Assembly (NCBI GenBank): GCA_020345805.1
Contig: CP070772.1
Coordinates: forward strand, 1,274,810 to 1,338,809
Direction of reading: 5' to 3'
Length of the DNA stretch: 64,000 nt
Origin: Phycisphaerales bacterium
GTDB taxonomy: Bacteria > Planctomycetota > Phycisphaerae > Phycisphaerales > SM1A02
A program made the translations under genes and the position numbers. Below the pieces are notes generated by a model, which worked only from the letters and a program-made list of their open reading frames with translations, was not told where the DNA came from and made no database searches. Shown one piece after another: positions 42,609-46,252 of this stretch (the stretch's first letter is position 1; every line of letters begins with the position of its first letter).

Positions 42609-43460
42609 ATGATCCGGAGCCTCGAACAGATCATTCGCAGCTACGAGCTGTATGAGGTCATTATCGAGATGGCCGTGATCTGGCTCTGCGTGTACCTGAT
42701 CGTGCGGTTTCTGCGGGGCACGCGGGGGGCGGGTGTGGTCAAGGGCGTGGCCGTGCTGCTGGTATTGCTGACCCTGTTGATTCGGGTGCTGGGGCAGGGC
42801 ACGGACACCTTCGGGCGACTGAACTTCATCTACGAGCGCTTCCTGGGCCTGCTGGCGATCCTGCTGATCGTGGTGTTCCAACCGGAGCTTCGTCAGGCGA
42901 TGATCAGGCTTGGTTACACGAGGCTGCTGCGCGGATCCCGCCGCGAGCTTGACGACGTGGTCAGAGCGGTGAGCGAGGCGGTGAGAGCCCTCAGCCGCAA
43001 TCGTTTCGGGGCACTGATTGCGCTGGAGCGAGGCGTGCAACTCGGCGGCCTGGTGGAGGGCGGGGAAGCGGTCGATGCCAGACTCAGCGCCCGGCTGTTG
43101 GAGTCGATCTTCTGGCCCAGCAATCCGCTACACGACCTGGGGGTGGTGGTGCGGGGCAATCGGATTATCGCCGCCAGCGTGCTGTTTCCCCTCGCCGAAG
43201 AGGGGTACCTGCCGCACCGCTACGGTTCGCGACATCGGGCGGCCGTGGGTCTGACCCTTGACAGCGACTGTGTGGTGGTGGTGGTCAGTGAGGAAACGGG
43301 TGCGGTGAGCATTGCCGAGCATGGCCGGCTGGAGGCGGATATCCCCCTGGGCCAGTTGCCCGCGGCGCTGGCCACCTGCCTGCGGACCTCCTCCCCGGAA
43401 CAGGATGCCGGCAGCGGCGGCAGCGAGGAGTCGTCCTCTGATGATGTGCAGGCAGCCTGA
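42609..43460 (+). CDS. cdaA: Diadenylate cyclase, CdaA type
   Basis: A 283-residue protein that makes cyclic di-AMP from ATP. Three N-terminal transmembrane segments (about 18-34, 44-62 and 76-92) place it in the membrane, followed by a DisA_N catalytic domain. The RHRAA motif is at 208-212, but the usual DGA triplet in PLHDGAVI reads HDLGVV (175-180), an altered but aspartate-keeping form. Its neighbour at 43486 is the YbbR regulator, which is the normal cdaA-cdaR pair. glmM, often third, is missing. Start 42609 fits the family N-terminus; an in-frame GTG 30 bases upstream is possible. Confidence 0.88.
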   Translation: MIRSLEQIIRSYELYEVIIEMAVIWLCVYLIVRFLRGTRGAGVVKGVAVLLVLLTLLIRVLGQGTDTFGRLNFIYERFLGLLAILLIVVFQPELRQAMIRLGYTRLLRGSRRELDDVVRAVSEAVRALSRNRFGALIALERGVQLGGLVEGGEAVDARLSARLLESIFWPSNPLHDLGVVVRGNRIIAASVLFPLAEEGYLPHRYGSRHRAAVGLTLDSDCVVVVVSEETGAVSIAEHGRLEADIPLGQLPAALATCLRTSSPEQDAGSGGSEESSSDDVQAA

Positions 43461-43485: not shown

Positions 43486-44523
43486 GTGCGACTGAATACC
43501 GAGATCTGGACCATTCTCATCGTGACCGTCGTCACCGCCCTCATCTGGGCGTGGGCGGCCACGGAGACCCGGGAGGAGAAGGACGTTTACGGCACGGTGC
43601 GCTTCACCATTGAAGACGACACGACCCAGTGGCTGATTGACCCGGACGAACATGCTCCCAGCGTGACGCTGGAGGGCTCGACAATGGCGATCCAACGGGC
43701 CGAGCAGATCCTGCGTGCCGGCCTGGACCTTGAGATTGACCGGCGCGGGCCGGGCCACCACACGATCGACCTGGCCAGCGCGCTTCAGGAACAGGAACTC
43801 ATAGCGGAGACGGGGGTGACCGTGGCGGCGACGGAACCTGCGGTGGTCAGTGTTGATCTTGACCGGATCGTTAAGGTTCCAGCGGCCCGGGTGGATCCCA
43901 AGCTGCCCGGAGTGCAGGTCACGGGACTGGAGATCGATCAGACCGAGGTGATGATCTCCATGCCCAGCCTTCTGCGGGGTTTGCATCCGGGCGATCTGGT
44001 GGTCGAGGCATTCGTCGATGCAGCCCAGCTTCAGGGTCTGCCACCGGACAGCGAGCACAAGCTGGATGCCACGGTTCGACTGCCCCAGGCCGGGCTGCAG
44101 AACCACGCGGCGGTCACCGTCACGCCTCCTACGGTGGAGGTCACCTTCACCATCGTCTCCCGCACGCGGGAACTTGCTCTGGACAGCGTGCGCGTGCAGG
44201 TCGCCGGTTCGCCCGAGAACTACCGGGAGTACGTTGTCGAACTGGCGGAGCAGACGTTGCGGGACGTAACCATCGAGGCCGATGCTGACCTGATTCGGCG
44301 CATCGAGGCCCAAAGCATGTACGTGGCGGCGGTGGTTCACCTGAGCCTGGCGGACATGGAACAAGGGCTTTCCGAGAAGGCGGTCACCTATTTCCTCGCC
44401 CTGCCCGCGGTGGGAAGCGTCGCGGCCGAAGGCGAGCTTGTGCAGTTCAAGAAGCAGGGTGATGTGGAGGAACCGCCCATCATTCAATTCACGATCCGCC
44501 GGCAGAATCCTCCGCAGTCGTAG
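43486..44523 (+). CDS. YbbR-domain protein, CdaR-like regulator
   Basis: A 345-residue protein with one N-terminal transmembrane segment (WTILIVTVVTALIWAWAA, about 8-25) and an extracytoplasmic region with repeated beta domains of the YbbR type (EVMISMPSLLRG, VTVTPPTVEVTF, ALDSVRVQVAG). CdaR proteins modulate CdaA activity at the membrane. Its start is GTG at 43486, 26 bases after the cdaA stop, with GGGAGAG upstream. It ends in a terminator-like hairpin. Confidence 0.85.
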   Translation: MRLNTEIWTILIVTVVTALIWAWAATETREEKDVYGTVRFTIEDDTTQWLIDPDEHAPSVTLEGSTMAIQRAEQILRAGLDLEIDRRGPGHHTIDLASALQEQELIAETGVTVAATEPAVVSVDLDRIVKVPAARVDPKLPGVQVTGLEIDQTEVMISMPSLLRGLHPGDLVVEAFVDAAQLQGLPPDSEHKLDATVRLPQAGLQNHAAVTVTPPTVEVTFTIVSRTRELALDSVRVQVAGSPENYREYVVELAEQTLRDVTIEADADLIRRIEAQSMYVAAVVHLSLADMEQGLSEKAVTYFLALPAVGSVAAEGELVQFKKQGDVEEPPIIQFTIRRQNPPQS

Positions 44524-44650: not shown

Positions 44651-46252
44651 ATGCAGAAGCGGTTCAAGCAGATCGTGATGGTTGTAGGGTGGGCGGGGCT
44701 GTTTCCTGGCACCTCGGAAGCGCCGGGGGCGGCCAGCCATCCTCCAGCCGCCGCCGGGCGGGAGCATGTCTGGTTCGCGACCGAACCGTCGGGTTCCGGG
44801 AGACCCGTCGAATTGTGGCATTACGCAGCAGGAACGGACGGGCCATACTACAGGTTGCAGATGGAGTTGACGGCCTCCCCGGAGGCGCTGGCCGCTTGGG
44901 GCGATCGGGTCTGGCTGGTGTTCCCGATCGACTCTAAGTCCGAAATCCCGCGGCGGGAGGTGTTCACCTTGCGGGTTGAGCGGGAGCCGGCGACGGGCTG
45001 GTACTACCCGAGCCCTCGCGATCGCCTGGAGGTGGTGGAGCCGCTGCCGGGCTTGGGCAAACTGGTGGGCTTTCTGGGTACCGCCGACGGACCGGTCGCG
45101 CTGCTCTGGCCATCACAGTTCGCCGGGACCGATGTGCAGGCGGGCGAAGGATCTATCGCCGCTCAGCGCACCCTGGACGGCCCAAGGTTGATGCAGTTGC
45201 GCAGCGGTCATTGGCGCGAGCTGGATCTGCCCCCCATGGTTGAGTCGGGGCAGCTCGCCGGGCTGGCCACCGGCGGCGAAACGAGCGCGGACCTGCGACT
45301 GCTGACCGATTTGGCCGGAGAACCTTCGCAGACGGTGGTCTATCTCCGCAATCCGCTTGACGAATCCTGGCAATCCAGCCGGATTCCTCTGGATATGAAG
45401 CGGTTTCGCTCGGCTCACGCCGTCGGCGATCGGCCGGTACTGCTGCTGGAGGGGGAAGAAGATGCCGGCGAATTTGAAATCGCGCTCCTGCGGCGAGAAA
45501 GCCTTCTGCCCCTCACCCGGCTGAAAGCACCGGCGGGAACCTGGGCGCTTCTGGGATTGCGCGACGGCCTGCGCATTCTGGAATGGCACGGTGCCGGAAC
45601 CGGAACGTACTCCATTCGCAGGATTGATCCGGTGACCGGCGAGATTGGTGAACGACAGGTACTTCGCACGCCGCCAACTCCGACGGGCAGCGTGTTGCAC
45701 ATGCTGGTTCTGCTCGTTGGTCTCGCTGCCGCACTTGCTCTGGTGTTTGTGGCCAGGCCGGCGGTCAGACAAGCCCGGTCGCTGGGTCAGGGGCTTGTCC
45801 CGTTGCCGCTCGGGTCCCGGCTGATCGCGCTGGCGACTGACGTTGCCCCCGGCGCGTTGCTGGCGGTGCTGATCACCGACTGCGCTCCTGCGGAACTGCT
45901 GAAGTGGCCCCTGTGGACCGCGAGCCTCGCCGACGGTGTCCCCTTCCTGATAATGGCCGCGATCACGATCAGCCACGTGACCGTGATCGAACTGGCAAAA
46001 GGCACCACGATGGGCAAGTCGCTGGTGGGCGGGAAGGTTGTGGCCATCGACGGCTCACGGGCGGGCGTGCGCCAGGTCTTGCTCCGCAATCTGATCAAGT
46101 GCTTGGTGATCGTGGTACCACCTCTTGCGTTCTTCCTGGTGCTGAACCCCAACCTGCAGGGGCTCGGCGATCTGGTGTCGCAGACCGTGGTCGTCCGAGC
46201 CGATGGCGGAGAGGAACAGAGCACCCCGGCAGACGATGCTGAGGACCGATAA
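44651..46252 (+). CDS. RDD-family membrane protein with large exported domain
   Basis: A 533-residue protein. The N-terminal part begins with a hydrophobic segment and FPGTSEAPGAAS (signal-like), then about 320 residues of beta-rich, probably propeller-like sequence without a clear repeat unit. A transmembrane segment near 350-372 leads to an RDD-type domain (GSRLIALATDVAPGALLAVL, TTMGKSLVGGKVVAIDG, RNLIKCLVIVVPPLAFFLVL) found in many small membrane proteins of unknown role. The short Asp/Glu-rich end is cytoplasmic. No Shine-Dalgarno, -10-like sequence just upstream. Confidence 0.78.
   Translation: MQKRFKQIVMVVGWAGLFPGTSEAPGAASHPPAAAGREHVWFATEPSGSGRPVELWHYAAGTDGPYYRLQMELTASPEALAAWGDRVWLVFPIDSKSEIPRREVFTLRVEREPATGWYYPSPRDRLEVVEPLPGLGKLVGFLGTADGPVALLWPSQFAGTDVQAGEGSIAAQRTLDGPRLMQLRSGHWRELDLPPMVESGQLAGLATGGETSADLRLLTDLAGEPSQTVVYLRNPLDESWQSSRIPLDMKRFRSAHAVGDRPVLLLEGEEDAGEFEIALLRRESLLPLTRLKAPAGTWALLGLRDGLRILEWHGAGTGTYSIRRIDPVTGEIGERQVLRTPPTPTGSVLHMLVLLVGLAAALALVFVARPAVRQARSLGQGLVPLPLGSRLIALATDVAPGALLAVLITDCAPAELLKWPLWTASLADGVPFLIMAAITISHVTVIELAKGTTMGKSLVGGKVVAIDGSRAGVRQVLLRNLIKCLVIVVPPLAFFLVLNPNLQGLGDLVSQTVVVRADGGEEQSTPADDAEDR

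Follow-up and report, generated by a model that had tools for sequence, protein, structure and literature searches.

Throughout the bacterial class Phycisphaerae, the diadenylate cyclase CdaA carries leucine or methionine in place of the glycine of its DGA motif; the altered motif is a rule of the class and not a peculiarity of the gene with which the analysis is concerned. DGA customarily serves to recognize diadenylate cyclases and to decide whether a homolog is active. Judged from the sequences, the nucleotide pocket of CdaA has indeed been remodelled across the class, probably long ago, and the remodelled protein is most likely a working c-di-AMP synthase. The gene lies in the window, i.e. 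the whole stretch of 64,000 nucleotides that was analyzed, from a Phycisphaerales bacterium whose genome assembly consists of one contig of 3.94 Mb. Residue numbers such as 171, 172, 187 and 202 follow the B. subtilis/Listeria numbering.

The window cdaA starts with an ATG at 42609 and its stop codon ends at 43460 on the forward strand (852 bases, 283 amino acids). Its product narrowly passes the NCBI equivalog model for CdaA, TIGR00159, with 189.5 bits against a cut-off of 188.8, and matches the DAC domain model PF02457 with 116.4 bits (cut-off 27). An earlier sequence-only reading had called the protein a CdaA whose DGA motif is altered, and this is upheld. The features of the locus are the following.

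42609..43460, forward strand: cdaA, probably membrane-anchored diadenylate cyclase with HDLG (open reading frame; TIGR00159; PF02457)
42975..43328, forward strand: DAC catalytic domain, residues 123-240 (PF02457 stretch; model against 8c4o)
43131..43142, forward strand: HDLG replacing HDGA, G172 to Leu and A173 to Gly (sequence; codons cac-gac-ctg-ggg)
43182..43184, forward strand: residue equivalent to Tyr187, Leu in the window protein (class alignment)
43227..43238, forward strand: SRHR, Ser for Thr202 with RHR intact (sequence; class alignment)
43287..43295, forward strand: SEE metal/phosphate motif, intact (sequence; class alignment)
43486..44523, forward strand: CdaR (YbbR)-like partner gene, membrane-anchored, too diverged for the Pfam model (neighbour profile)
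44651-46252: gene for an RDD-family protein, next after the CdaR-like one

Residues 173-179 of the window protein read PLHDLGV where the solved CdaA sequences have PLHDGAV, and the match is ungapped across the motif, placing DLG exactly over DGA. The aspartate is kept, glycine has become leucine and alanine has become glycine, just as the sequence-only reading had described; the RHRAA that it called intact is indeed unchanged at 43230-43244, within a GxRHRxA motif that reads GSRHRAA. An alignment slip or frameshift as the source of HDLG is ruled out by the ungapped match, and a recent mutation, sequencing error or assembly error by the class-wide occurrence of the change. On its sequence, the gene is a CdaA filed as a variant and not as canonical: GxRHRxA and SEE are present, DGA is not. 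The structure model of the protein was built from only four sequences and is poor in its N-terminal part; the N-terminal helices (three transmembrane helices characterize a CdaA) are present in it, but with a pLDDT of about 45-57. For the DAC domain, where pLDDT lies mainly between 80 and 94 apart from a block at 60, the predicted model superposes on the ATP-bound Listeria CdaA (8c4o) with Z 27.2 and 1.5 A over 151 aligned residues, at 34% identity.

With CdaA/DacA of L. monocytogenes, B. subtilis and S. aureus the window protein shares the domain order, the DAC fold, the HD before the motif, RHR, SEE and a CdaR-like neighbour; it departs from them in DGA to DLG, Thr202 to Ser and Tyr187 to Leu (Gln in most of the class). 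The neighbouring gene at 43486-44523 has no Pfam YbbR match, but its product is recovered with E 1.4e-82 by a profile made from the 139 class genes found immediately after cdaA, and in a control no shuffled version of the window protein, out of 20, appeared among the matches. PF07949 (YbbR) exceeded its cut-off in two of three cdaA-downstream genes scanned; for counting partner genes, however, it proved too insensitive, with 4 of 120 class genomes, and was replaced by the neighbour profile, which also picks up genes that follow a canonical cdaA in other Planctomycetota classes. The next gene in the window encodes the RDD protein, whereas in B. subtilis glmM comes after cdaA-cdaR. An open frame of similar sequence to the RDD gene occupies the same place in locus L033 (5922-7592).

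Within the class, position 172 is Leu in 87 and Met in 73 proteins, i.e. in all 160 CdaA sequences from 159 genomes; 165 genomes were examined, and in six (G014, G082, G088, G105, G124, G159) no CdaA was found. The residue that follows is Gly in 123 and Ala in 37 of the 160. An evenly drawn sample of the class gives the same picture, with CdaA in 115 of 120 genomes and HD[L/M][G/A] in 116/116 copies. Proteins from other classes of Planctomycetota belong to the same family by profile, and many have a CdaR-like neighbour; they differ from the window protein in their HDG[A/G] (78/79), a typical GTRHR and a commonly hydrophobic residue 187. The glycine of DGA is kept in 78 of these 79 sequences and replaced by Gln in one, of which 59 were aligned (58 Gly, one Gln) and 20 read by motif (all Gly). 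The 79 were drawn from 140 genomes, with 30 taken from the top of the score list, 20 from its upper middle and 29 from its low-scoring end, and the survey applies within Planctomycetota; at least one of the 59 aligned sequences (L210) seems to belong to another type of DAC, with GHDGA and RHAAA. A lone CdaA with HDQA replacing HDGA is found at L216 (genome G276, another class). The locus-to-genome map for the alignment was compiled by hand, as were the genome lists for the cross-counts given below; a scan for related loci across genome contigs returned only three loci. The comparison with planctomycete homologs that the sequence-only reading had suggested therefore makes HD[L/M] the rule of the class, absent in the 79 others, and the rarity of HDLG that it had implied is not borne out.

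Position 172 did not change alone. When the class is compared with the other classes, positions 172, 187 and 202 diverge more than any other aligned DAC position. At 187 the class has Gln in 146 and Glu in 11 of 160 proteins (157/160), where other classes are mostly hydrophobic; at 202 it has Ser in 125 and Ala in 26 (151/160), where Thr stands in 54/59 sequences of other classes. The entropy at 187 is 0.52 in the class against 2.20 elsewhere, and this lower value suggests selection for a new state instead of decay. As read from the alignment, the changes at 187 and 202, both of which went unmentioned in the sequence-only reading, are coupled to that at 172. The window protein is a partial exception, with L172 and S202 as usual but Leu at 187 and not the class-typical Gln. 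The catalytic residues, meanwhile, are retained: D171, G201, R203, H204, S222 and E223 are invariant in 160/160 class proteins, R205 is kept in 154 (five Leu in one family, one Gln) and E224 in 149, and position 188 stays Phe or Leu. The mark of a pseudo-cyclase, i.e. loss of the catalytic Asp, Arg, His, Ser or Glu, is found in none of the 160. Besides their changed DGA motif, five genomes of one family have RHL for RHR (L175, L201, L205, L206, L207), and L022 has RHQ; two of the five RHL genomes still possess a c-di-AMP riboswitch. The RHL variants are not tied to a second DAC, as 0/5 of these genomes has a second full DAC match; short matches below the cut-off in G138 and G148 were not counted.

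The history of position 172 was followed on two trees. In a tree inferred without six pocket columns, from which five rows with long or doubtful branches were dropped (L065, L210, L209, L211 and L134; one class row, four others), a single branch, with an SH-aLRT support of 77, separates the class from all other rows. Position 172 then changes twice on this tree: once for the class, and once for the isolated Gln outside it. The first tree (FastTree, all 220 rows) requires three changes at this position, and two for the class label. A single ancient switch at 172 is the simplest reading and the one we favour; it has moderate support in these topologies and is not firmly shown.

In 99 of 120 class genomes no DAC other than the HD[L/M] CdaA was found; a compensating second DAC is hence rejected as the general reason for the change. 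The window genome does possess another DAC, which is DacZ-like and has kept its DGA (locus L002, 1468-2568, reverse strand, near 347 kb of G000:C1). This protein shares the DAC domain family with the window CdaA and differs in its LDGA, its GARHAAA and its N-terminal region; it matches NF041371 with E 1.2e-34, far below the cut-off, and DacZ_P weakly. In relatives, the weaker DAC matches mostly resemble this DacZ-like protein. Furthermore, additional DACs with GHDGA and either GTRHTAA or GTRHAAA, in long open frames, occur beside an HDMG CdaA in G056 and G048 (L062 and L063).

Components expected around c-di-AMP co-occur with the altered enzyme. A PgpH-type phosphodiesterase is detected in 89 of 120 class genomes at E 0.001 and over the cut-off in 75; four partial matches (G091, G097, G103, G136) were excluded, leaving 85 for the cross-count, according to which 68 of the 99 sole-CdaA genomes encode such a protein. 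The PgpH of the window genome is intact, with its extracellular and seven-helix parts (both 7TMR domains) and its HD domain. The c-di-AMP riboswitch (RF00379) occurs in 31 of 120 class genomes, 30 of them over the cut-off, compared with 19 of 149 in a sample of the phylum; none was detected in the window genome. In 28 of the 31 riboswitch genomes the HD[L/M] CdaA is the sole DAC; the others are G039 and G150, with two DAC matches each, and G124, with none. Taken together, 72 of the 99 sole-CdaA genomes contain a riboswitch, a PgpH or both, and 27 contain neither. The core of the family consensus is conserved in all six aptamers that were aligned, five of which come from the class and one from outside it.

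Several of the riboswitches of Phycisphaerae (L244-L251, L253-L261) lie upstream of TrkH or permease-type transporters. A Pfam scan of four downstream genes gave two TrkH and two AA_permease_2; among the next genes of 17 riboswitches viewed, most of the unscanned ones are alike by eye, except at L250, where an unrelated short protein follows, and at L260. Two riboswitches stand back to back on opposite strands in L251 (1501-1665, reverse; 1767-1979, forward). G124 (L253), a genome 91% complete, has two riboswitches, one followed by TrkH, and no DAC was found in it, which may be an assembly gap.

On these grounds, we consider it likely that the HD[L/M] CdaA actively synthesizes c-di-AMP and that its base pocket has been remodelled in a manner specific to the class. 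According to this model, the membrane-anchored CdaA would make c-di-AMP from ATP as a face-to-face dimer, with catalysis by the usual Asp, RHR and SEE residues. The ATP pocket would have been remodelled at the base of Phycisphaerae: the DGA glycine gave way to a bulky Leu or Met, the adenine-stacking residue (Tyr187 in Listeria; mostly other hydrophobics elsewhere in the phylum) to Gln or Glu, and Thr202 to Ser or Ala, and the hydrophobic base contact may have moved from 187 to 172. Chemistry and product would be unchanged, whereas affinity, metal preference or turnover could be altered. The case for activity draws on the invariant catalytic set, on the many genomes with this CdaA as their sole DAC and on the riboswitches and PgpH proteins in many of them; the fit of the DAC domain model to ATP-bound CdaA and the retention of a CdaR-like partner gene also speak for it. 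It is strongest for the sole-CdaA relatives and probably carries over to the window gene by homology; with a DGA-bearing second DAC and no riboswitch, the window genome could obtain its c-di-AMP from the other enzyme. Its protein also lacks Gln187, which counts against activity, as do the 27 sole-CdaA genomes with neither riboswitch nor PgpH and the riboswitches of G124.

In Listeria CdaA, Tyr187 stacks on the adenine, whose edge is recognized by the backbone of Leu188 (PMC11066881, PMC10167629); Thr202 contacts a phosphate and Asp171 the ribose, and the DGA glycine is absent from the ten ATP-contacting residues listed in the available part of the same study (PMC7288161). In a study of DisA, by comparison, this glycine touches c-di-AMP, and the G73A variant of the M. 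tuberculosis enzyme bound ATP and kept its activity, which supports activity without the DGA glycine; RHR to AAA was dead, and DGA to AAL or AAA ended in inclusion bodies (PMC3328451). Because alanine is much smaller than leucine or methionine, G73A supports an active HD[L/M] enzyme only in part. M. bovis CdaM D110A/G111A was inactive, but it had lost the Asp too (PMC13022847). Leptospira CdaA has an RHR- and SEE-type site like the window protein, but a canonical HDGA and measured activity; D172A and R203A, the equivalents of D171 and R203, abolished it, and the window protein keeps both residues (PMC12974146). The open-access literature searched yielded neither activity data for any HD[L/M] enzyme nor a test of Leu or Met at the glycine, and no paper on a class-wide change of CdaA. 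The sequence-only reading had named wide occurrence of HDLG in proven active cyclases as evidence against it; wide occurrence is what the 160/160 class proteins display, occurrence in proven active cyclases is not.

That reading had left the choice between an active enzyme with changed kinetics and a pseudo-cyclase. Of the two, the active enzyme is favoured and the pseudo-cyclase disfavoured. A pseudo-cyclase would bind ATP or c-di-AMP without cyclising and act as a sensor or scaffold with CdaR, while another DAC supplied c-di-AMP; the bulky residue in a motif called essential (PMC12974146, PMC13022847) would fit, as would the second DAC of the window genome, the missing class-typical residue 187 of its protein and the changed third RHR residue in 6/160 relatives. 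Against invariant catalytic residues, the sole-DAC genomes, 72 of them with riboswitch or PgpH, and the active G73A variant of DisA, we regard it as improbable. More doubtful still is a changed specificity, in which the remodelled pocket takes another base and yields a different or mixed cyclic dinucleotide. All three of the most divergent positions do lie in the nucleotide pocket, one being the adenine-stacking residue, and a conserved Gln or Glu at 187 could bond to a base; however, it is the backbone of residue 188 that recognizes adenine (PMC11066881, PMC10167629), and this residue stays Phe or Leu in the class; moreover, genomes with the HD[L/M] CdaA as sole DAC have c-di-AMP riboswitches in which the consensus core is intact. 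It is accordingly a slim prospect that a shift of the adenine clamp from 187 to 172 altered the nucleotides accepted, so that the class makes another cyclic dinucleotide instead of or besides c-di-AMP, perhaps with adapted receptors.

Every CdaA read from the class is without the DGA glycine, and still c-di-AMP riboswitches and phosphodiesterases have been retained there, which suggests that this glycine is an unreliable sign of activity. The Phycisphaerae offer a natural experiment on how an ATP pocket can be rebuilt, at three linked positions.
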